Assembly: GCF_000969445.1 (NCBI RefSeq)
Contig: NZ_JZEY01000054.1
Coordinates: 1,116,001 to 1,180,000, forward strand
DNA: 64,000 nucleotides
Direction of reading: 5' to 3'
Source of the DNA: Devosia chinhatensis
GTDB lineage: Bacteria; Pseudomonadota; Alphaproteobacteria; Rhizobiales; Devosiaceae
In this document: in pieces, positions 4,491-18,168 of the stretch
How positions within the stretch are numbered: position 1 is the stretch's first letter
How the letters are laid out: every line of letters starts with the position of its first letter
Program-made: the position numbers and the translations under genes
The notes under the pieces: model-generated
What the model was told of the DNA's origin: nothing
What the model saw: the letters and a program-made list of their open reading frames with translations, nothing else
Database searches by the model: none

Positions 4491-5591
4491 TTACGAGCCG
4501 TTTTGCACACGCTTTTTGTGAACCCGTATGCTGGTCTTCCGCATCTCGGCGCCGCGGCTGTAGCGCTTGCCCATACCCTCCGATAGATCGCCAAGCATGT
4601 CGGCCACTTCTCGGTCGGTGAAGCCCGATTCCCGCAGCTCGCTGCTGAACGTGACCCGAAGGCCGTGCAGCGTCAGGTCATGGCTATTAGGCAATGCCTT
4701 CCTGAAAGCGTCCGATAGCTTCACCTGTTGCCACACCTGGCGCATCGCGTTCTCAGATGGGTATGCCTTCCCGAGGCTGTTCCGGCAGATCGGCGCATTG
4801 CTTGCCGGCTGCACCACGCCATCGCCGGCCTTCATCGCGTCGAGCAATTTCCGCAATTCGGCTGGCACCCCGATGGTAATCTCCCCCACCTTGTCGCCGT
4901 TCTTCCTCGGAATGAACGCCAGCACCTTCCCCATGTCGGGGTCAGTGCGATAATTCTCCCACCTCAGTCGTGCTATGTCTTGGCCGCGCAGCCCGCAGTG
5001 CTTGGCTATAGCTAGGACCGGGCGCAGATGGTCAGGTGAAGCCATGAAAGCCTTTTCCCACTCATCAGCGCTCCAACGTCGGTTGGCATCCTTATTGGCC
5101 TTGTAGAGCCTCGCCACGCCAAGGACGGGGTTGGCTTTGATGAGGCCGGCTTCCAGCGCATCGCTGAAAACGGCGGAGAGAACTGCCAGCACGAAGTCGG
5201 AGAACTTGTCGCCCTTATCTGCGGCAGCGCTATCGCGCGCCTCTACGATATCGACCGTCTCATATTCGGCGGCATTGTCCTCGAACAGTGGGTCAAGATA
5301 GAGCAGCACCTTGTCGTAGTCGGCCTTGGTGCGGGTTGCCAGCTTCGCCCACCGGCGCCCAGCCTTGTACCGCTCCACAAGCGCACCGAGCGTCCCGGCG
5401 GAGTAAACCTTGCGGCGCTTTCTCTCTGCCGTTGAATAGGCATGAAGAAAGTCAGGACCTTCGAGGATGGCGTCCAGCTCGTCGCGGCTTTTCGCCTTGG
5501 CCAGGAGTTTGCCAGTCGAGCGCAGGGACACATACCAGGTGCCAGCGCTGTTCTTGCGGATATTAAGCCCTTTGAGCTTCACCTTTGGCAC
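4491..5591 (-). CDS. int: Phage tyrosine-recombinase integrase
   Basis: A 366-residue tyrosine recombinase that catalyses prophage integration and, with Xis, excision. An N-terminal DNA-binding/core-binding part (about 1-170) precedes the catalytic domain. Visible catalytic residues are Arg in CGLRGQDIARLRW, HxxR in LHGLRVTF, and the nucleophile Tyr in GKRYSRGA. The usual LGH before the Tyr is LGD here, so the second His/Trp position is substituted. It lies last in the leftward operon, next to the broken tRNA-Cys, and overlaps the excisionase gene by 29 bases. Confidence 0.93.
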   Translation of the reverse strand: MPKVKLKGLNIRKNSAGTWYVSLRSTGKLLAKAKSRDELDAILEGPDFLHAYSTAERKRRKVYSAGTLGALVERYKAGRRWAKLATRTKADYDKVLLYLDPLFEDNAAEYETVDIVEARDSAAADKGDKFSDFVLAVLSAVFSDALEAGLIKANPVLGVARLYKANKDANRRWSADEWEKAFMASPDHLRPVLAIAKHCGLRGQDIARLRWENYRTDPDMGKVLAFIPRKNGDKVGEITIGVPAELRKLLDAMKAGDGVVQPASNAPICRNSLGKAYPSENAMRQVWQQVKLSDAFRKALPNSHDLTLHGLRVTFSSELRESGFTDREVADMLGDLSEGMGKRYSRGAEMRKTSIRVHKKRVQNGS

Positions 5592-6082: not shown

Positions 6083-6484
6083 TCATGGAAGTAGGCTCCA
6101 CTTCTGGATCGGGCGGGTGGCAGAACGCTGCTGGTTTCCTTTGCCCAGGCGCTGGGAAAACCATTTATACTTGGGACGGCTGATGCCCTGGTGCTTGTCC
6201 GAAACCCGCTTTCCCTTCGCCTGCATTGGCGTGTCATAGGTCCGGGTCTTGAACCCGTGGCAGGTCTTGCAGGCAGCAACACAGTTCTCCAGCGTGTCGC
6301 TGCCCTTGTCCGTTGCCGGGGCGGGGTAGTGATCGAACTCGACGCCACTATCCAGCGGCGCATTGCAGCGCTGGCCGGCCTGGAGGCCATAGACAGACCC
6401 TTCGGCCTCGCAGAGCTTCCCCGACCGCTGTAGGGCCTCGCGCTTAGTCTGTTTGTTGAACTCGTAGCGTCGGGATCTAGCCAT
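6083..6484 (-). CDS. HNH nuclease (small phage type)
   Basis: A 133-residue protein with a Lys/Arg-rich N-terminus, a VEFDHYPAPATDKGSD core providing the Asp-His metal site, and ENCVAACKTCHGFKT, a Cys pair plus His forming the HNH/beta-beta-alpha-metal motif. It is the small HNH type common in alphaproteobacterial prophages and probably cuts or nicks DNA. It overlaps the end of the ASCH gene by eight bases and belongs to the leftward operon. Confidence 0.75.
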   Translation of the reverse strand: MARSRRYEFNKQTKREALQRSGKLCEAEGSVYGLQAGQRCNAPLDSGVEFDHYPAPATDKGSDTLENCVAACKTCHGFKTRTYDTPMQAKGKRVSDKHQGISRPKYKWFSQRLGKGNQQRSATRPIQKWSLLP

Positions 6485-7160
6485 TGGACTCGCTCGCTAA
6501 CTGATCAATGTTCCGGCGCTCAACGGTGAAGGTGTAAGCGGCAACCCAAGGGTTAGCGTCCCATGAGCCGGGGCCATTAATGGTGTCCCAAAGCTCGCGA
6601 TAGGCGATCTGCGGGTATTCAGACCAGAAGGTAAAGTCGTCCCACCATTTGTCTTCGAACCGCTTGCCCTCTACGTCTTTGGGGCGCCAGTGGCTGGTGG
6701 AAGAAACGCCTTCACCCAATGCGTCATCGGCCGTGCATTCGTTGAGCCCTTCAACCCGCACTTCAGTGACGGTGAGTGTCAGGCGCGAGAACTCACGAGG
6801 CATGTGGATCGAGGGCCACCAGCCGTCGATGCTTTTGTCGCCATCAGCCTGATAGATAAGCTCGGTCTGATACATGCCCGATCGCGCATCGGCGATGGTC
6901 CAGCCATGAACCATGCGAGCGGACCACGTCTCTCGGACCCACAGCCAGTCGCCAACCCCTATGCGGAGGTAGTCGACGGCTGTCGCGCCGATATCGCTCT
7001 CAGCGACGTTCACTATCCCGCCGCCTGCGCCGCTGACATGGTAGAGGCCGTTGCCCTGCAACTCAGGCTGCGGCTTTAGAATGCGCCGCGTTTGGGTCTT
7101 GGTCCCGGCGAGGAGCGCCCTGACCATCGGGCCGCTGAATAGTATCGATTTGTCAGCCAT
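6477..7160 (-). CDS. ASCH-domain-like phage protein
   Basis: A 227-residue protein starting MADKSILFSGPMVRALLAGTK, with GGAGG ten bases upstream. The N-terminal ILFSGPMVRALLAGTKTQTRR motif, the WVRETWS segment and SRLTLTVTEVRVEGLNE are hallmarks of a phage ASCH-like (PUA-related) protein family. ASCH/EVE/PUA folds bind RNA or modified bases. It sits between a DndC-like enzyme and an HNH nuclease, suggesting a part in nucleic-acid modification or sensing. Exact role unknown. Confidence 0.7.
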   Translation of the reverse strand: MADKSILFSGPMVRALLAGTKTQTRRILKPQPELQGNGLYHVSGAGGGIVNVAESDIGATAVDYLRIGVGDWLWVRETWSARMVHGWTIADARSGMYQTELIYQADGDKSIDGWWPSIHMPREFSRLTLTVTEVRVEGLNECTADDALGEGVSSTSHWRPKDVEGKRFEDKWWDDFTFWSEYPQIAYRELWDTINGPGSWDANPWVAAYTFTVERRNIDQLASESNG

Positions 7161-7368
7161 GTTCAGCCTCCTGATTTCCAAGGTCAGAAAGGTGGAAGCG
7201 TGGCCCGTCATCGGTTTCTTCGACGCGCAGCAGCCCAGCCCGCTCCATCCTGCGAAGCGACCTATGCCCCTCGCGCGGTATCTGGACGTCGACGCCAGGG
7301 CACACGCTGCCGCCGGCGCTGGAGATGAGCTGCAATAACTGGCGCTCTTGGCCGGTGAGCTTTCTCAT
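7153..7368 (-). CDS. Small winged-helix-like protein
   Basis: A 71-residue protein (MRKLTGQERQLLQLIS ...) with a helix-helix-loop pattern ending RSLRRMERAGLLRVEETDDGPRFHLSDLG. That pattern resembles the recognition helix and wing of MarR-like winged helices. Its ATG overlaps the DndC-like gene's stop by four bases, and its 3' end overlaps the ASCH gene by eight. It may be a small operon-internal regulator; this is inferred from fold only. Confidence 0.6.
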   Translation of the reverse strand: MRKLTGQERQLLQLISSAGGSVCPGVDVQIPREGHRSLRRMERAGLLRVEETDDGPRFHLSDLGNQEAEHG

Positions 7369-8591
7369 GCTGCACCTCCAAAAAGCAGCGGCTGGATCGA
7401 TCCATCCTGAAATACAGTGTCTAGCCATTCTTCTGCAGATGGCTCATTTCCGTCCCACCCTTTTGGCCAGGTATGGTTGGTAATAAGCTCTCGGATACGC
7501 GCTTCTTCCTGTTCGTTAATAAGGTCGATCGGCGGTCGGCCGAGACGATGTGCGGATGCGTTACATTCCGCTTGGATCGAAAGAACGCGGCTTAATCCCA
7601 TCAGGCGGGCTTTGAAGGTCAGTGGGCCCATGCGCTGCGGGTTCGCTGCGATCGAACCGTCCTTAAGGCGCTCAGCGCCCTCCTTGCGGATGCGATGCCG
7701 CGGCTCGCGAAGTTCACGATAGAGCGGCTTGAGCCCTTTCAACGGCGCAAGGTATGCCCAGGCCGGAGTGGCGATAACTGTATCCAGAGCTTTGTCCTGA
7801 TCGGTCAGTGGACAGCCGATGCATCCGGTGCGGGTGTTGATCTCAGCCGCTTCTTCACCACCATATGCATCTGCGACGTCCGCAGTGGCCCAGGCGCCAT
7901 AGGCCTCGGTGGGCGCAAAGATGCGAAGCCAATCCCATACGTTGCAAACCCGCCAATGTAGGAGCGGCGCCAACGTGGCAACTCTGCCGCGAATGCCTTT
8001 CGAGTTCGGCAAGACTTGCTGATACCAGCCTTGGCCGCACTCGGCGCCGTCTTTCGAGCAGCTCATGACTATGCGCTGATCGCGGATCGCGCTTTCGCCC
8101 TGGCGGACGCCGGTGATCATCAGAACATTGCCGTCGAGCGCGTCAATGCGGGCGGCGAGCGCCTCCGTCATGGGGTCGACCTTGATCTGCCGAGTACACC
8201 AGCGGAGAGTATTGTTATTGGGGGGCGGTACACCGCGGCCAAGAATGTAGACCATGAAACGCTTATCGAGGGGCGCCCGCACGACTTCAACATGGATCCC
8301 GCGGTCTCGGAGCTGCTGCATTACCCGCTCGGCTGCTATCGCGAGCGGCGGGAGCTCCTGCCGGGTGTCAGCGTAGAACACAGACAACGTTTTTGGCCGT
8401 TCAAGCAGGCCAACATCAAGCAAATGCGCGATGACAGTTAGCGTGGCAGAGCTGTCTTTACCACCAGAGTATGCGATAGCCCAATGGTCGTGCGACGAAC
8501 CATAGGCACGCATCGAGGTGAGCGTCATCTCCATGGCATCATCGTAGCTAAGGCGCTGGGTGCCGCCAAACAGGGTAGGCTGAAAGCTCAT
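7365..8591 (-). CDS. DndC-like ATP-pyrophosphatase (PAPS-reductase superfamily)
   Basis: A 408-residue enzyme with the PP-loop SGGKDSSATL near residue 43, LRWCTRQIKVDPM in the middle, and TGCIGCPLTDQDKAL near residue 260. This combination resembles DndC, the sulfurtransferase that activates the DNA backbone for phosphorothioation, more than assimilatory PAPS reductase. DndA, DndD and DndE are not in the window, so it may act alone, use a host cysteine desulfurase, or modify another substrate such as tRNA. It is divergent (74 bp) from an SRA-like HNH restriction protein. Confidence 0.75.
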   Translation of the reverse strand: MSFQPTLFGGTQRLSYDDAMEMTLTSMRAYGSSHDHWAIAYSGGKDSSATLTVIAHLLDVGLLERPKTLSVFYADTRQELPPLAIAAERVMQQLRDRGIHVEVVRAPLDKRFMVYILGRGVPPPNNNTLRWCTRQIKVDPMTEALAARIDALDGNVLMITGVRQGESAIRDQRIVMSCSKDGAECGQGWYQQVLPNSKGIRGRVATLAPLLHWRVCNVWDWLRIFAPTEAYGAWATADVADAYGGEEAAEINTRTGCIGCPLTDQDKALDTVIATPAWAYLAPLKGLKPLYRELREPRHRIRKEGAERLKDGSIAANPQRMGPLTFKARLMGLSRVLSIQAECNASAHRLGRPPIDLINEQEEARIRELITNHTWPKGWDGNEPSAEEWLDTVFQDGSIQPLLFGGAA

Positions 8592-8665
8592 ACTGCTGCC
8601 CTCGTGGGTGGCGAATCCCCTATGCCGCCGGTATCGTTTACGGGCACAAGCTTGGGGGAGCTTTG

Positions 8666-9478
8666 ATGAGCTACGGCTTCGAGAAAGGGCGATCGTATAA
8701 CCGACGCCAGGATATTCACGCTCGTTTTGGGGGAAGCCAGCAGTCGGGGATCATTCCGGTCCCAGCTCATAACGTCATCTTCATAATGTCCGGTGCCCGT
8801 GGACCTGAGTATGGCTACGACGACGAAGTGCTCGAAGACGGGACCGTGCTCTACTTCGGCGAAGGGCAGCGCGGCGATCAGCTGTACGTCCGTGGGAATA
8901 GGGCCATCGGAGATCATGCGGCCGATGGTCGGTCGCTGTTGCTGTTCCACAAACGCTATCCACAGCGGGATATCCTCTTCGTTGGAGAGATGGTTTGCGA
9001 GAGCTTCGAGTGGCGACAAGGCCGAGATGCCGACGGCAATACGCGACAGGTCATCGTGTTCCGCCTCCGACACATCGAAAAAGTTGTCGAGCAGATGGAA
9101 GCGACAGCGCCGATCGTTGATGACCTGGACGGTCTCCGAGACCTGGCTTACGCAGCCGCAGGTATTCGCGATGCAAAGGTGGGCGGCAAACCTCGAACGA
9201 TTTACGAGCGAAGCGCCGACGTTCGAAATTATGTGTTGGCCCGCGCCCGGGGCGTCTGCGAGGGTTGTAGCGCTCCGGCCCCATTTGTGCGTCGTGACGG
9301 CAGCCACTATCTGGAGCCCCATCATATCAGACGCGTCAGCGATGGCGGGCCGGATCATCCCGCGTTCGTAATAGGGCTTTGCCCGAATTGCCACCGACGC
9401 GTTCACGCTGGCGTGGACGGCACCGAGTACAACGCGACACTGCTTGCTCGCATGCCTGGCCTGGAAAAGAAGCGATAG
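8666..9478 (+). CDS. HNH endonuclease with ScoMcrA-like SRA domain (modification-dependent restriction type)
   Basis: A 270-residue protein with an ATG at 8666 behind a strong GGGGGAG. The N-terminal half (GRSYNRRQDIHARFGG, QQSGIIPVP, YGYDDEV.EDG, YFGEGQRGD) matches the SRA-type domain found in ScoMcrA-like type IV restriction enzymes. The C-terminus is a zinc-stabilised HNH domain with CEGC, EPHHIRR and LCPNCHRRVH. Such enzymes cut DNA carrying modified bases or phosphorothioates. It is transcribed against the leftward operon and divergently from the DndC-like gene. It may serve in superinfection exclusion, which is inference. Confidence 0.75.
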   Translation: MSYGFEKGRSYNRRQDIHARFGGSQQSGIIPVPAHNVIFIMSGARGPEYGYDDEVLEDGTVLYFGEGQRGDQLYVRGNRAIGDHAADGRSLLLFHKRYPQRDILFVGEMVCESFEWRQGRDADGNTRQVIVFRLRHIEKVVEQMEATAPIVDDLDGLRDLAYAAAGIRDAKVGGKPRTIYERSADVRNYVLARARGVCEGCSAPAPFVRRDGSHYLEPHHIRRVSDGGPDHPAFVIGLCPNCHRRVHAGVDGTEYNATLLARMPGLEKKR

Positions 9479-9489
9479 ATAGAGGGCCA

Positions 9490-9585
9490 TCACGCTGCCT
9501 TTCTCGATTCAACAGCCCCGTCAGAAAGCTCGAAGCTCTTCCGCCACTCATGCTTGAATTGGATCTGCTCATTGCACCTGGTCAT
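9490..9585 (-). CDS. 31-residue small phage protein
   Basis: A tiny frame (MTRCNEQIQFKHEWRKSFEL ...) whose ATG overlaps the ninB stop in an ATGA junction, the coupling used throughout this operon. It is charged and soluble-looking. No family recognised. Supported mainly by the coupling and the fit of the gap up to the convergent HNH gene. Confidence 0.4.
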   Translation of the reverse strand: MTRCNEQIQFKHEWRKSFELSDGAVESRKAA

Positions 9586-9977
9586 GCCGCGTTCCCTTCG
9601 TCTTGAAACTGAACGCCGTGTTCCGCGCCGAACTTGAAGATGAGTTCTATAAGTCCGGTCATCTCGTCCTTCGAGAGGTCAGATGACGACTGGCCCCAAG
9701 GCACAAAGCCGTGGCCATCGAGGCTGGGAAGCAACTGGATTTCCTGACCAAGCGCGTGGAGGAAGATCACCTTCCACTGGTCGGGAGTGAACTTCTTCCC
9801 CCCAAGCGCTGCCTGCTGCGAAACATCAGTGAGCATTGCCCACATGCGGTCATTCTGAGGTAGGGAGCGTTTGACCTCCTTGAACTCGACGCGAGTTCCA
9901 AAGGGAACGCCTTGCGCCCAACGCTGGACCTTCTCGCGGTCGGCTTTGCCATTGATGATGACGGTTGCGCGGCTCAT
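9582..9977 (-). CDS. ninB: NinB-like recombination mediator
   Basis: A 131-residue protein (MSRATVIINGKADREKV start) with KRSLPQNDRMWAMLTDVSQQ and FTPDQWKVIFLHALGQE, characteristic of lambda NinB (Orf), a single-strand DNA-binding recombination mediator. It clusters with an ERF annealing protein and a YqaJ exonuclease, so the three probably act in one recombination pathway. It overlaps both neighbours by four bases. Confidence 0.85.
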   Translation of the reverse strand: MSRATVIINGKADREKVQRWAQGVPFGTRVEFKEVKRSLPQNDRMWAMLTDVSQQAALGGKKFTPDQWKVIFLHALGQEIQLLPSLDGHGFVPWGQSSSDLSKDEMTGLIELIFKFGAEHGVQFQDEGNAA

Positions 9978-10183
9978 GGAACGAGAGCCCCACTGCAAGC
10001 CACAAATGCATCGCGATAAAGCGCCCGGCAATCGGTCTGTGCATCCAACGGCAAGCGCATGAACGCTGCTGACAGCATCAGCTCATTACCTTTTCTAAGC
10101 TTATCAGTGTCACGTTCATCGCGGGCCTGACGCAAGATCGCCTGCACATCGGTAATCAAGCAGGCTTGGGCTTCTAGGGTCAT
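9974..10183 (-). CDS. Hypothetical phage early protein
   Basis: A 69-residue, mainly helical protein (MTLEAQACLITDVQAILRQARDE ...). It is translationally coupled to ninB by an ATGA overlap and lies downstream of the exonuclease gene in the leftward operon. No known domain. Confidence 0.6.
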   Translation of the reverse strand: MTLEAQACLITDVQAILRQARDERDTDKLRKGNELMLSAAFMRLPLDAQTDCRALYRDAFVACSGALVP

Positions 10184-10239: not shown

Positions 10240-10968
10240 TTAAACGGCCATGGCGTCGGGAAGCCCGTACTTGCGGACCTTCTCGACCACTTCCGCCAGT
10301 TCGGAATTGAAGGCGTCGATCGCGGTGGCGAGTTTGGCGATATAGCCTTCATCGCGCTCGACACGGACGATCAGCGGCGGAAGGCCGGGGGAATAGGAGA
10401 CAAAGTCCCACCATGCCCGCTCGGTGATCCAAAGGTTGCCGTGAACCTGCGCTTTATGCTCGGTCGGAAGTTCGTTTTTCTGAAGCCGCTCGATCTGGAT
10501 ATGAGCCAGAGCGGTTTTGATTTCTAGGCCGCCATCATCAGCGATCAAACTGTCAGGACTGGCACCGGCATCGCGGCGGCGGACGAAACCAATCTGCAGC
10601 GGTTCGACCCCGCGTGCGAAGGCGTAGAGGTCGCGGGCCTCGGCCTCCATTACCCTACCGCGCTCCATGGCTGGACTGCTGTAGCCTTCATCTTCTGGCG
10701 TGCCGCGGATAATCTCCCCAGCAAGGGTGCGCAGGTACTTGAGGCGCGCCTGCGAAGGGCTTGCGCCACGAGCGCGTGCAGCTTTCACCGCGGCGGCAAG
10801 TTGCTCTGCAGTGCAACCGTTCTTGACCATGGCATCCATGATCGTCGCGGGAAGCAGCCCTTCTCTGCCCTCGGCCAAGACGGTCGAGAACTCGGATGCG
10901 GTCGGGATACCCTTGCGGGCTTCAAACCATTCGGGCGTGCCCTGATCGCAATCGAACACTTGGATCAT
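10240..10968 (-). CDS. YqaJ-family viral exonuclease
   Basis: A 242-residue lambda-exonuclease-like (PD-(D/E)XK) nuclease starting MIQVFDCDQGTPEWFEARKG. The WFEARKGIPTASEF opening, MERGRVMEAEARDLYA, and catalytic Asp/Glu-x-Lys in DSLIADDGGLEIKTA are visible, with HKAQVHGNLWITERAWWDFV after. It resects double-stranded ends to give the strand used by the ERF annealing protein encoded just upstream (ATGA overlap). Confidence 0.92.
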   Translation of the reverse strand: MIQVFDCDQGTPEWFEARKGIPTASEFSTVLAEGREGLLPATIMDAMVKNGCTAEQLAAAVKAARARGASPSQARLKYLRTLAGEIIRGTPEDEGYSSPAMERGRVMEAEARDLYAFARGVEPLQIGFVRRRDAGASPDSLIADDGGLEIKTALAHIQIERLQKNELPTEHKAQVHGNLWITERAWWDFVSYSPGLPPLIVRVERDEGYIAKLATAIDAFNSELAEVVEKVRKYGLPDAMAV

Positions 10969-11735
10969 CGTGCTGCCCCCGTCGAATTGATGGCAGTTAC
11001 GGCCTTCTGATAATCGCGGGCGGCAATGTCCTCGATGCAATCAACCTTCATGAACTTGAGGAAGGTGGTGACATAGCCGGGTCGCTTGGCGCCAAGGCGC
11101 TCAACAACCGTGTCGATCAGGTCATTGAGATCGAGAACCTGTTGTTCTGTGATCAGCTCGGCAGGCATGTTGCCGTCGGTGTCGCCTTCACCCACAGCCA
11201 CGTTGAAAATCATCCGCAGGAGGTAGCGCATGGCATAAGACTGAGCCGCACCAACCGCGTGTGTTTTCGTCATCACATCATTGCCACGAGCACCTTTGCC
11301 GTCTGCCGGCATGTCCTTGTGATAGGTGCGGGTGTGGCCAGAGTTGGTAACGTGGCAAACGATGCGGACCCAATCCGCCGGTGCGCCAACACCATCGTTG
11401 AAGCTGAGCGCAAAGCCGTGCTTCGTGTAGATCGGGCGCAACGCCTTATCCAGCTGCGCATAGTCGGCATAGCGGCTTTTGGTCTGGGTATTGGCCATAT
11501 TGGTGGCCACGACGCCCATTTCCTTCTGCGCCGCAGCCATTGCCTCGTTGAAGGCTTTCTCAGCAGCGTCTGCTTCAAGCTCTTTGCCAAAGGCAATCAT
11601 TTCCTTGACCGCCCCCAGGTCGTGCCCGTTAGACAGCAGCTGATAGGCCATCTGGATCGGGGTGAGCTGGCTGGCGGGTTGCATCGCCTCGGCGACATCC
11701 TTCGGGACTTCAAGACGTTCTGCAAGCGCGGACAT
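10965..11735 (-). CDS. ERF-family single-strand annealing protein
   Basis: A 256-residue protein of the ERF superfamily, which anneals complementary single strands in phage recombination. Visible family features are NEAMAAAQKEMGVVATNMANTQ, KSRYADYAQLDKALRPIYTKHGFALSF and the GAAQSYAMRYLLRMIF segment. The ATG at 11733-11735 follows GGAG by six bases and is preferred to the ATG at 11747. It forms a recombination module with the exonuclease and NinB. Confidence 0.92.
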   Translation of the reverse strand: MSALAERLEVPKDVAEAMQPASQLTPIQMAYQLLSNGHDLGAVKEMIAFGKELEADAAEKAFNEAMAAAQKEMGVVATNMANTQTKSRYADYAQLDKALRPIYTKHGFALSFNDGVGAPADWVRIVCHVTNSGHTRTYHKDMPADGKGARGNDVMTKTHAVGAAQSYAMRYLLRMIFNVAVGEGDTDGNMPAELITEQQVLDLNDLIDTVVERLGAKRPGYVTTFLKFMKVDCIEDIAARDYQKAVTAINSTGAAR

Positions 11736-12628: not shown

Positions 12629-12651
12629 AAAAAAGCCCGCCGGAGCGGGCT
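12629..12651 (-). terminator. Intrinsic terminator, leftward
   Basis: Stem AGCCCGC/GCGGGCT with a 4-base loop, followed on the minus strand by a run of Ts (As at 12629-12633 on plus). It would stop transcripts from the repressor operon before the leftward promoter. Confidence 0.75.
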
Positions 12652-12699
12652 AGGGCAGGGTGCTTGCAAATGTTTGCAAGTCAGTTGGTGAGGGCAAAG

Positions 12700-12724
12700 A
12701 AAAAGCCCCGGCGGTTGCCGGGGT
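12700..12724 (-). terminator. Intrinsic terminator downstream of the P63C pseudogene
   Basis: Stem CCCCGGC/GCCGGGG with loop GGTT, followed on the minus strand by a CTTTTTCTTT tract. It lies just beyond the P63C frame and forms a tandem pair with the terminator at 12629-12651. Confidence 0.75.
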
Positions 12725-13119: not shown

Positions 13120-13357
13120 CCTCTGAAAACAGCACGACGGGATCGCCAAATTCTCCATTGATCAGATCGGCAGAACGCCACCAGGCGATAGCGCCGGCAT
13201 ACTTGCCGGATGACCACAGTATTCTTGCCTGCTGCTTTGCCTGATCCTCCGACTGAGCTTCGCGAGCTTCGAAAGCTGGTTGGATCTCACCATCTTCGCC
13301 GCTGATGAATGCCAGATAGACGATCAGTTTTGTTGGCGTGGGCGCTTTATCCGTCAT
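13097..13357 (-). CDS. Hypothetical protein co-transcribed with the repressor
   Basis: An 86-residue acidic protein (MTDKAPTPTKLIVYLAFISGEDGE ...). Its ATG overlaps the repressor stop (ATGA), so it is made from the lysogenic transcript. No domain recognised. Its position suggests a lysogeny-expressed accessory gene; its 3' end overlaps the start of the P63C remnant. Confidence 0.65.
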   Translation of the reverse strand: MTDKAPTPTKLIVYLAFISGEDGEIQPAFEAREAQSEDQAKQQARILWSSGKYAGAIAWWRSADLINGEFGDPVVLFSEGEVPEME

Positions 13358-14037
13358 GCCTTTTCAACCACCAGATCAGTGATGGGCACATTTGGATGGC
13401 GCCTAATGTACTTCTTTGCCGCCGCACGCGTTTTTATGTCAGTCACCAGTGCCATGGCTTCCACGGACACATCGGCCATGGTGCGGGCATTGACGCTGGT
13501 AAGATGGAATAGGCCGGGAGCGCTCCCCGGCTGCGGTTCCTTGATCAGTACTCGGCCAGACGCCAGCCAGCACACGCAAGGTTCGCCCATGTGCTCCGGC
13601 CCCGGCACGGCTTTGTCCTCGTAGAAAATAAGCCAACCGTCGTTAGCCAGGCCGTGCATGGAGTCCCCCCGAACTTCAAGCGCCTCGGCTGTTTCCGCAG
13701 CGTCGATGGGCGCGGTGGCCTCACCGTAGTTGCCATCACCCTGAGCAAACAATACCGACCCGTCCGGACCCGCGCCAGCATAGCCGACAATGGGAACCGT
13801 CCGCTCCCCGTCCGGCAGCATCGGCCCTTTGCCTCGCATGAGCCACTCAAATGAGACCTTGAACTTCTTAGCATAAATCTCGCCAGTCGGTGCTCTGAAG
13901 CCGGATGACCCGTTCTCGTGTCCTGCATATGTCGGGTATTTAACGCCGAGCCCTTCCATGGCGTCGGCAGCCTCTTGGGCGTTTCGGTAGCCCGCATGAA
14001 TACGGGCCTTCATCAATCGATCTGACATTTCGCTCAT
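13354..14037 (-). CDS. CI-like phage repressor (HTH plus S24 peptidase-like domain)
   Basis: A 227-residue repressor that should hold the prophage silent. The N-terminus has an XRE-type HTH (RIHAGYRNAQEAADAM ... YPTYAGHENG). The C-terminal LexA-like domain has an Ala-Gly cleavage site in GYAGAG, the nucleophile Ser in RGDSMHG and the Lys in RVLIKEPQ. An ATG at 14061 lies under a CATAAT sequence that could be the maintenance promoter's -10, so the ATG at 14037 is preferred. Operators lie on both sides of the divergent cro promoter. RecA-stimulated self-cleavage is expected. Confidence 0.9.
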   Translation of the reverse strand: MSEMSDRLMKARIHAGYRNAQEAADAMEGLGVKYPTYAGHENGSSGFRAPTGEIYAKKFKVSFEWLMRGKGPMLPDGERTVPIVGYAGAGPDGSVLFAQGDGNYGEATAPIDAAETAEALEVRGDSMHGLANDGWLIFYEDKAVPGPEHMGEPCVCWLASGRVLIKEPQPGSAPGLFHLTSVNARTMADVSVEAMALVTDIKTRAAAKKYIRRHPNVPITDLVVEKA

Positions 14038-16322: not shown

Positions 16323-16544
16323 ATGAATTCACATTACGCACCGACGCTTCCAAACTGGCTCAATCGACTGATCACCAGCAAGCCAACGCTCACGTCTCAG
16401 CCACGATGCGAGTGCGGGCGATTTTGCAATCAAGATAAGCCCGATATCACGGACAAGCTTGTGAAAGACATGTCGGCAGCTGGCCTCTATGTCCCGGCCA
16501 AGTTCCGCCAGAACGCCATAGACAGCATTGCGGGGCTGGCATGA
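16323..16544 (+). CDS. Small protein with CxC-x3-C cluster
   Basis: A 73-residue protein (MNSHYAPTLPNWLNRLITSK ...) with RCECGRFC, a possible metal-binding cluster, before a helical C-terminus. GGAGG lies nine bases upstream of the ATG. Its end overlaps the methyltransferase start by four bases. Confidence 0.6.
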   Translation: MNSHYAPTLPNWLNRLITSKPTLTSQPRCECGRFCNQDKPDITDKLVKDMSAAGLYVPAKFRQNAIDSIAGLA

Positions 16545-17611
16545 CCGTCTCGATCCTGATTGGTGATTGCCGCGAGGTGCTTAAGACGCTGCCCGACCAA
16601 TCCGTGCATTGCGTCGTGACGAGTCCGCCATATTTCGGATTGCGCGACTATGGGGTCGACGGGCAGATGGGCCTTGAGCCCACGCCTGCCGAGTTTGTGC
16701 AAGGCATAGTTGACTTGTTCCGCGATGTTCGCCGCGTGCTTTGTAACAACGGCACCCTGTGGCTTAACCTTGGAGACAGCTACGCCGGCAGCTGGGGAGC
16801 GCAAGGACGCAACGGCCAAATGGCTGAGCGCTGTGTAGTGCAGGCTCGCAGCATCGATGCTCACCCCCAGAAGGCAAGTCGCACCGGTGCGATTCCCGAA
16901 GGCTCCGGCCTGAAGCCGAAAGACCTGATCGGTATACCGTGGCGCGTTGCGTTGGCGCTCCAGGCAGACGGTTGGTATCTGCGCCAGGACATCATCTGGG
17001 CCAAGCCCAACCCTATGCCGGAAAGCGTCACCGATCGTTGCACGAAGTCGCACGAGTATCTGTTTCTGCTCAGCAAGTCGGAGCGCTATCATTTTGACGC
17101 TGAGGCAATTGCGGAGCCGCTTGCGGACGCCAGCATTGCGCGCTTGGCTCAGGATGTCGAAGGGCAGGCGGGCAGCGACCGCGTTCCTGGCAAAACCAAC
17201 GGACGCATGAAGGCTGTCGCCAAGGGCAACCGCAAAACCTTTCGGGGTGGTGGCGTCTACACTCAGGGTCGCAGCTTCGACAATGGGGCCGCGGCCTGCA
17301 ATGACAGCGTTGGCAATGAACCGAACGAGCGCGGCACGCGGAACAAGCGTTCAGTTTGGTCGATAGCTACGCAGCCTTTCAAAGAGGCCCATTTCGCTAC
17401 GTTTCCGCCCGCTCTTGTGGAGCCGTGCATCCTTGCAGGCTGCCCGGTAGGCGGCACTGTGCTCGATCCATTCGGAGGCGCCGGCACAACTGGTCTTGTC
17501 GCTGACAGGCTTGGCCGCAACGCCACACTCATCGAGTTGAACCCAGCCTATGCCGACCTGGCGCGAAACCGCATCCAAGACGATGTCGGCATGTTTGGAG
17601 CAGTCGCATGA
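16541..17611 (+). CDS. Site-specific DNA methyltransferase, beta class (TSPPY motif)
   Basis: A 356-residue SAM-dependent methyltransferase. Motif IV, VTSPPYFGLRDYG, comes at residue 27, and motif I, DPFGGAGTTGLVADRLGR, near the C-terminus: the beta-class order. The SPPY form is typical of N4-cytosine enzymes, though N6-adenine specificity is possible. No partner restriction enzyme is adjacent, so it is probably an orphan phage enzyme protecting or marking phage DNA. Coupled by four-base overlaps to both neighbours. Confidence 0.9.
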   Translation: MTVSILIGDCREVLKTLPDQSVHCVVTSPPYFGLRDYGVDGQMGLEPTPAEFVQGIVDLFRDVRRVLCNNGTLWLNLGDSYAGSWGAQGRNGQMAERCVVQARSIDAHPQKASRTGAIPEGSGLKPKDLIGIPWRVALALQADGWYLRQDIIWAKPNPMPESVTDRCTKSHEYLFLLSKSERYHFDAEAIAEPLADASIARLAQDVEGQAGSDRVPGKTNGRMKAVAKGNRKTFRGGGVYTQGRSFDNGAAACNDSVGNEPNERGTRNKRSVWSIATQPFKEAHFATFPPALVEPCILAGCPVGGTVLDPFGGAGTTGLVADRLGRNATLIELNPAYADLARNRIQDDVGMFGAVA

Positions 17612-18168
17612 CCATCAGAGCATCAAACTACGCGAGGGCCGAGAACGAACTTTACCAGACCGAGCCATGGGCGACGGAAGTGCTGCTACGGCACTTCCCT
17701 GTGGCTGGGCTGCTCGTCTGGGAGCCCGCAGCTGGCAACCATCTCATGGCCGACGTACTTAGCGCGGCTGGTGCCAGGGTCTACACCTCGGACATAGCCA
17801 CCTATGACCGTGAGCATGATGTCGACTTCGACTTTCTGAACGCTTCAAACATCTGGCAATACCGGTGCGACGCGATCATAACCAATCCGCCATACGGCAA
17901 GGGCAACCGTGACGCTGTCCGCTTCGCCGAGCTGGCTATCGAGCGCTGCGATGGCATGGTGGCTTTGCTGCTCACCGCCAAATTCGACTTTGGCAAGACC
18001 CGCCGGCACCTCTTCCAGGACAATCGCCGCTTCATGGCGAAGATCGCGCTCCTCAACCGCATCAGCTGGGCTGGGAACGGCGAGACCGGCACCGAGGACC
18101 ATGCTTGGTATGTCTGGGGCCCAAGGGAATACACCCATGCCCGCATGCTCTGGGGTGACAAGCAATGA
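17608..18168 (+). CDS. Second DNA methyltransferase-like protein (NPPY)
   Basis: A 186-residue class I SAM fold with VWEPAAGNHLMADVLSAAG as motif I and ITNPPYGKGNRDA as motif IV, the alpha/gamma order typical of N6-adenine methylases. It is shorter than most DNA methylases and lacks an obvious target-recognition domain. It is coupled to the beta-class enzyme upstream, so the phage may apply two modifications. Confidence 0.8.
   Translation: MTIRASNYARAENELYQTEPWATEVLLRHFPVAGLLVWEPAAGNHLMADVLSAAGARVYTSDIATYDREHDVDFDFLNASNIWQYRCDAIITNPPYGKGNRDAVRFAELAIERCDGMVALLLTAKFDFGKTRRHLFQDNRRFMAKIALLNRISWAGNGETGTEDHAWYVWGPREYTHARMLWGDKQ

Follow-up and report, generated by a model that had tools for sequence, protein, structure and literature searches.

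What a DndC-like enzyme does inside a prophage, and whether it works together with the nuclease encoded beside it, is the question raised by a 64,000-nucleotide stretch of the Devosia chinhatensis genome (G000:C54:1116001-1180000; this whole stretch is called the window). The window carries a prophage with genes for an integrase, NinB, YqaJ, a repressor, a portal, a scaffold, a major head and a tape-measure protein. A cluster of five genes sits on its leftward arm, where a DndC-related PP-loop ATPase and putative sulfurtransferase of 408 aa (7365..8591, minus strand; hereafter the enzyme) is divergent from an SRA-HNH type IV-like nuclease without a sulfur-binding domain (8663..9478, plus strand). 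An earlier sequence-only reading had interpreted the cluster as a small DndDE-free modification-and-exclusion system in a lysogeny operon, or as a thio-modification of RNA. All five open reading frames (ORFs) were found in the prophage where that reading had put them, and its interpretation was partly supported: the motifs, the layout and the kinship with DndC hold, but the pair is optional. The explanation favoured here, to which we assign close to an even chance, is that the enzyme is a putative phage sulfurtransferase independent of DndD and DndE, probably acting on DNA, and one part of an early anti-restriction set.

The motifs SGGKDSS, LRWCTRQIK and TGCIGC, which had suggested DndC, all lie within 7365-8591(-). 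The enzyme matches phrog_12882 across its full length with 776 bits. Against the DndC model TIGR03183 it scores 109.4 bits and does not reach the curated cut-off of 290.4; two of its relatives score 119.8 and 112.9 bits. Confirmed matches to the enzyme number 324 in viral contigs and 116 in genomes, and the best 80 of each were analysed. The full-length match to phrog_12882, the match of 259 bits between the nuclease and phrog_15103, and the 324 viral relatives indicate that the observation is beyond chance. By a search of its own genome, the enzyme is present in a single copy, and its closest named relative among the best 80 genome loci is the enzyme of Devosia aurantiaca (L090, 96% identity). 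The 80 viral loci, the 80 genome loci, six phage records and the window were reduced to 121 dereplicated enzyme loci. This dereplication at 95% is imperfect: the near-twins L004 and L059 were both retained, and L029 and L036, which bear the nuclease, were removed. At E ≤ 1e-5, 1067 plasmid records match the enzyme.

In a midpoint-rooted tree of 32 rows, in which long branches were flagged, SspD and BrxP were left out and no firm order is given inside the DndC-like group, the phage clade and the protein of Thermus phage Tsatsa form one branch with a support of 97/99. This branch is nested in a group with DndC, three plasmid proteins and a phrog_424 protein, from which CysH and CysD split at 98/98.

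The PP-loop SGGKDS (residues 42-47) is invariant in a 62-row alignment and conserved to at least 99% in 106 of the 121 dereplicated relatives, selected by length. In the same 106 relatives, Cys 132, 178, 216, 257 and 260 are conserved at 1.00 and Cys 185 at 0.99. Cys 132, 257 and 260 align with C146, C280 and C283 of Salmonella DndC and are predicted, by analogy with DndC, to hold a [4Fe-4S] cluster; the six conserved cysteines would bind the cluster or relay sulfur. According to the available text of PMC11662687, DndC cannot do without C280 for its [4Fe-4S] cluster, and phosphorothioation was lost in the mutant; judging by its number, this is probably the same residue as C280 of the Salmonella protein. 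In the accessible sections of PMC10853773, DndC is given three cluster cysteines and a separate dyad. This second dyad, GECP..PSCG (C262 and C273 of Salmonella DndC in our reading), is present in both annotated DndC proteins and in 14 of 15 DndC-like rows (12 of 13 distinct places); the one row that has no dyad, L284, is a fragment that contains no cysteine. None of the 106 phage relatives has the dyad motifs between W222 and C257, and 105 of them have no cysteine there at all. The clade has instead Cys 178, 185 and 216, the counterparts of which in the Tsatsa protein are C153, C159 and C185. Among enterobacterial plasmids, two large PAPS-reductase-family proteins of 791-811 aa (PAPS, phosphoadenosine phosphosulfate; L271:3827-6262 and L272:3869-6244) keep the DndC-like dyad and GCxxC but have RQC in place of the RWC of DndC.

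The AlphaFold model of the enzyme, built from 62 sequences with a mean predicted local distance difference test score (pLDDT) of 82.5, matches PP-loop enzymes over residues 8-273. The matches include NAD synthetase and ATP sulfurylase (Z 13.7), yeast PAPS reductase (Z 12.6) and the tRNA thiolase NcsA (Z 11.8). The predicted fold alone does not choose among these substrates. The lack of DndC in the list of fold matches carries no meaning because Salmonella DndC has no sequence match in the PDB.

The proposed system had been described as DndDE-free, and the searches agree with this. BLAST of the enzyme loci with Salmonella and Pontibrevibacter proteins found no DndB, DndE or cysteine desulfurase, where the desulfurase query was a fragment. 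A DndD-like partner was rejected, as the matches are at the level of the Walker A motif only and cover no more than 62 aa of an SbcC-like ATPase; an example of this ATPase matches Pfam AAA_23 below the cut-off. No DndD above the cut-off was found in the host genome, and a search of that genome for DndE gave no match for the controls either.

The methyltransferase neighbours (METHYLTRANSFERASES) in the 121 dereplicated enzyme loci were counted with profiles built from the enzyme loci themselves. A C5 methyltransferase of type A occurs in 31 loci and one of type B in 18. A fusion of an SNF2 helicase and an N6/N4 methyltransferase occurs in 24, including L167, where the match falls inside the enzyme ORF, so that 56 loci, not 57, are counted as having at least one separate C5 or helicase-N6/N4 methyltransferase gene. 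In these 56 loci, the nearest methyltransferase of each type is always on the strand of the enzyme. Pfam confirms all three types, on one example each. Six phage records (of 11 close ones) show a similar arrangement in that an annotated DNA methyltransferase adjoins the enzyme or lies one small gene away in five of them; the sixth has no such methyltransferase by annotation, and the one close plasmid has it. A count by motif, which covered 108 of the 121 loci, gave C5 methyltransferases in 22 enzyme loci and no enrichment of N6/N4 methyltransferases, with 14 of 108 enzyme loci compared to 22 of 60 SRA-HNH loci. On a tree of 120 of the 121 enzymes, from which L167, without a PP-loop, was left out, the C5 label changes 29 times compared to a shuffled mean of 38.5, which indicates that the C5 link was gained or lost repeatedly.

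Whole viral contigs were compared using 50 of the 80 enzyme loci, 50 of the 80 SRA-HNH loci (without the enzyme-bearing L239, L243 and L261), and a baseline of 23 of 79 YqaJ loci, which is a rough control because these lie on longer contigs, many of them environmental. PF00145 matches in 26 of the 50 enzyme contigs (21 over the cut-off) and in 2 of the 50 SRA-HNH contigs (1 over); Fisher's test gives p = 6e-8, or 9e-7 when only matches over the cut-off are counted. In the YqaJ baseline, PF00145 matches in 5 of 23 contigs, all 5 over the cut-off, and the difference from the enzyme contigs corresponds to p = 0.02. In 23 of the 26 enzyme contigs with PF00145, the methyltransferase lies within 5 kb of the enzyme, where random placement expects 5.8. 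These results indicate that the commoner neighbour of the enzyme is a DNA methyltransferase, although the link is weak relative to one baseline.

The helicase-methyltransferases, as seen at L035:8074-10704 and in 22 other dereplicated enzyme loci, combine an SNF2-like helicase and an N6/N4-type DNA methyltransferase in about 870 aa on the strand of the enzyme. A PPY-type motif is usual at one position of such methyltransferases, and the examples inspected have TSVPF or TSIPF there. Type B C5 methyltransferases have a repeated ADPR...GTV.G segment in the middle of the protein, e.g., at L142:3124-4911. At L167:5155-7050, a single ORF joins the start of a helicase-methyltransferase to enzyme residues 73-405 without the PP-loop, which could stem from a deletion, from gene decay or from faulty assembly. 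In the window, neither C5 type was found, and its N6/N4 DNA methyltransferase (16541..17611, plus strand; PF01555, 147 bits) lies 8 kb from the enzyme on the opposite arm. There, two overlapping methyltransferase genes (PF01555; phrog_799) occupy 16541-18168 of the rightward arm.

The nuclease had been described as an HNH protein with a ScoMcrA-like SRA domain lying 74 bp from the enzyme. Its SRA and HNH parts both resemble those of ScoMcrA (PDB 5zmm), its HNH part also resembles that of a second McrA-type enzyme, and the His and Cys residues of the HNH region are conserved in the nuclease alignment. The gap is 74 bp if the ATG at 8666 is taken as the start and 71 bp if the TTG at 8663 is taken. 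The SRA match starts at residue 9 of the window nuclease and at residue 264 of ScoMcrA, which leaves no room for an N-terminal sulfur-binding domain (SBD). According to the available portion of PMC7461809, SRA domains prefer modified cytosine, i.e., 5-methylcytosine (5mC), 5-hydroxymethylcytosine or its glucosylated form, and the SBD senses sulfur. Because it has no SBD, the nuclease probably reads modified cytosine and not the product of the enzyme. Since both genes share one phage, the product would in any case not be the target of the nuclease.

The SRA-HNH relatives number 121 in viral contigs by an alignment-based scan, and the best 80 of these were analysed. Two further scans gave at least 580 and at least 576 confirmed matches, of which the best 80 each were likewise analysed. 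SRA-HNH contigs seldom carry C5 methyltransferases (2 of 50, compared to 5 of 23 YqaJ contigs; p = 0.03). Likewise, a C5 methyltransferase occurs in none of the 5 enzyme loci that have the nuclease and in 49 of the other 116 (p = 0.08), and no SRA-HNH gene was found in 78 type A and 16 type B methyltransferase loci. This scarcity is as predicted for a nuclease that cuts 5mC, and it may reflect incompatibility with 5mC, for which the counts are small. By crude gene calling, the two flanking genes point the opposite way in 31 of the 64 dereplicated SRA-HNH loci; such an orientation would fit an accessory gene transcribed from a promoter of its own. Among 385 genomes of the class, an SRA-HNH match was obtained in 9, near full length in 3 including that of the window, and the other two of these 3 have no match to the enzyme. 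In a Rhizobium phage (L008:467-1276), the SRA-HNH gene is divergent from DNA methyltransferases, and a different PAPS-reductase-like protein (phrog_424) lies about 3.7 kb from it.

The gene at 6477..7163 (minus strand) had been read as an ASCH protein. This label is suggested by a match of 195 bits to phrog_874 and by Foldseek, the best matches of which are YqfB and ASCH proteins with E from 0.005 on a weak model (mean pLDDT 58); Pfam and the PDB gave no sequence match. ASCH relatives occur in 12 of the 121 enzyme loci (window included), each time downstream on the same strand. Similar rates were found elsewhere, with 6 of 78 type A loci, 2 of 16 type B loci and 3 of 64 SRA-HNH loci, and the ASCH protein was rejected as a specific partner of the enzyme.

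If the enzyme and the nuclease formed one modification-and-exclusion system, as had been supposed, the enzyme would mark phage or lysogen DNA and the nuclease would discriminate by the mark. Where the two genes co-occur, they are mostly adjacent: in 5 of the 5 dereplicated loci, the nuclease lies 24-414 bp from the enzyme, always on the opposite strand, and two more opposite-strand pairs within 0.45 kb were found in the viral loci L239 and L243, which were not compared for near-identity to the other pairs. Adjacency within about 0.45 kb on opposite strands thus holds for 7 of 8 distinct co-occurrences, but the pair is rare. The five paired loci are also scattered over the enzyme tree, where they require 5 changes compared to a mean of 4.9 after shuffling. 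However, they are only 5 of 121 enzyme loci, the nuclease is found in 2 of 50 enzyme contigs, and the orientation varies, being divergent in 2 of the five loci and convergent in 3. In the eighth case, the near-identical L029 and L036, the nuclease follows the enzyme on the same strand at a distance of 1.3 kb, and the enzymes of L004 and L059, at least 98.5% identical to those of L029 and L036, have no SRA-HNH gene in their loci. From the side of the nuclease, the enzyme occurs within ±5 kb in only 3 of the best 80 of 121 viral loci, namely L239, L243 and L261 (the last being the contig of L086). In a reverse search of 50 whole SRA-HNH contigs, it occurs only in L239 and L243, which had been included knowingly as carriers. 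In addition, the nuclease has no sulfur-binding domain, and a nuclease directed at the mark would attack the very phage that encodes it. The two genes do form a pair, though an optional one; a dedicated system is not supported by these counts, and we regard it as improbable.

The other alternatives concern the activity of the enzyme. The least probable of them, and very improbable, is that it is a PAPS reductase serving as an auxiliary metabolic gene for sulfate assimilation. The database label and 43 bits against Pfam PAPS_reduct favour it, but an assimilatory PAPS reductase was rejected because the CysH model NF002537 gives 19.2 bits compared to a cut-off of 154 and no match is listed for TIGR02057 or TIGR00434, whereas E. 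coli CysH, as the control, passes all three cut-offs. The PP-loop is SGGKDS and not the SFGIQ of CysH, and CysH falls outside the DndC-like group in the tree. The C-terminal ECGxH cysteine of CysH is catalytic, and this residue (C239) has no counterpart in the enzyme alignment. If the enzyme instead used ATP to activate a nucleotide or cofactor and transferred no sulfur, this would be consistent with its PP-loop fold, which is also that of GMP and NAD synthetases, FAD synthase and ATP sulfurylase. The six conserved cysteines, three of which align with those of DndC, argue against this, and it is improbable. Alternatively, the enzyme may thiolate RNA, e.g., tRNA, during infection, and that RNA would also be bound or edited by the ASCH protein. 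Some tRNA thiolases are PP-loop proteins that carry a [4Fe-4S] cluster with three Cys ligands; NcsA, one of these, is among the fold matches, and the ASCH model resembles YqfB, an N4-acetylcytidine amidohydrolase. The Z score of NcsA is, however, near that of many other PP-loop enzymes, the ASCH gene is not specific to enzyme loci, the best profiles besides phrog_12882 are DndC and its relatives, and the methyltransferase neighbours are DNA enzymes. Thiolation of RNA is accordingly judged unlikely, with a small but appreciable chance.

In the favoured explanation, a phage sulfurtransferase of the early anti-restriction set, the enzyme would take sulfur from a host desulfurase, as suggested by the fact that IscS replaces DndA in Dnd systems in the accessible text of PMC10853773 and PMC11662687. 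It would activate its substrate with ATP and place sulfur on a nucleic acid, most probably the DNA of the phage itself. Action on DNA being presumed, the enzyme would be one member of an early set that shields the phage genome from host restriction, in which the neighbouring methyltransferases may do a similar protective job. The SRA-HNH protein would be a separate accessory nuclease that probably cuts the cytosine-modified DNA of rivals and ignores the product of the enzyme.

Several results weigh against this explanation. When only PF00145 matches over the cut-off are counted, the enzyme contigs (21 of 50) and the YqaJ contigs (5 of 23) show no clear difference (p = 0.12). For the proximity of the methyltransferase within 5 kb, the P from random placement is too small because both kinds of gene belong to phage early regions. 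The link is also one-sided, since few methyltransferase loci have the enzyme (4 of 78 dereplicated loci for type A, 1 of 16 for type B), and 65 of the 121 enzyme loci, that of the window included, have no separate gene of any of the three methyltransferase types. Furthermore, in the parts of PMC12707154 and PMC10853773 available, DndC is described as working with DndD and DndE, and neither DndE nor a real DndD was found near the enzyme by BLAST of the loci.

A bolder form of the sulfurtransferase explanation, an outside chance in our estimation, is that a large phage family adds sulfur to phage nucleic acid without DndD and DndE. The target may be a base rather than the backbone, and it would be made accessible by a methyltransferase or helicase-methyltransferase encoded in the same operon. 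The base is suggested by analogy because the cluster would be as in base thiolases. Such a phage DNA modification was not met in the literature searches.

The remaining genes of the cluster are on the minus strand. The small ORF of 72 aa at 7153..7371 had been called winged-helix-like, by eye only; this was not confirmed, as it has no match in Pfam, PHROG or NCBIfam and one PADLOC match of 12.8 bits. Of 170 stretches, three have it: the window, the copy from its own genome (L001) and the Devosia locus L090. The second HNH endonuclease (6083..6484) is phrog_333-like, and its relatives are located upstream of the enzyme on the same strand at L026:5502-5897 (89 bp) and L106:5538-5927 (74 bp). Around the cluster, also on the minus strand, are the tyrosine integrase (4491..5591), the NinB recombination mediator of the early region (9582..9980), the YqaJ-type exonuclease (10240..10974) and the prophage repressor (13354..14034; phrog_4). 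The term lysogeny operon is loose: the cluster shares the leftward arm, but terminator-like patterns at 12634-12723 separate the repressor gene from the remaining leftward genes (16 pattern matches in the region compared to 7.3 in shuffles).

Counts of auxiliary sulfate-assimilation genes in viruses include those of the cysH type, e.g., the 167 phage cysH genes in the available part of PMC10914622. For the phrog_12882-type clade, the sulfate-assimilation label misfits the sequence, and a nucleic-acid sulfurtransferase fits. If the enzyme acts on DNA, phages would have their own way of adding sulfur to it, by an enzyme simpler than DndCDE, and this would help in studying the need for DndD and DndE as well as the evasion of restriction by phages. 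In the accessible passages of PMC12429752, a DndC-like gene in one Sinorhizobium prophage is flagged as needing verification, and those of PMC11437467 state that phage PAPS reductase homologues deserve more investigation. In the sources that could be searched, which leave out most subscription journals and all bioRxiv preprints and were partly accessible, no description of the methyltransferase neighbourhood or Cys pattern of this enzyme family was found.

Compared with known systems, the enzyme shares with DndC (TIGR03183) the PP-loop SGGKDS, the cysteines of RWCT and GCxxC, and similarity across most of its length. It differs in the score far below the cut-off, in the extra Cys 178/185/216 in place of the GECP..PSCG dyad, and in a neighbourhood without dndE or a real dndD. 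SspD of Ssp and BrxP of BREX type 4 show distant PP-loop similarity, judged by profile scores only, with 33.9 and 48 bits compared to 116 bits for the DndC model of PADLOC. The window nuclease has SRA and HNH in common with ScoMcrA (SBD-SRA-HNH) but is without the SBD, with 271 aa compared to 561, and the ASCH-like protein finds its counterparts in the phage proteins of phrog_874. The members of phrog_12882 correspond to the enzyme over its full length, although their label, phosphoadenosine phosphosulfate reductase, is not borne out for the clade. The so-called PAPS reductase of Thermus phage Tsatsa is shorter at the C-terminus (319 aa), and no methyltransferase is annotated in the 6.6 kb shown; it has 36% identity to the enzyme, counterparts of all six cysteines and a sister branch in the tree.

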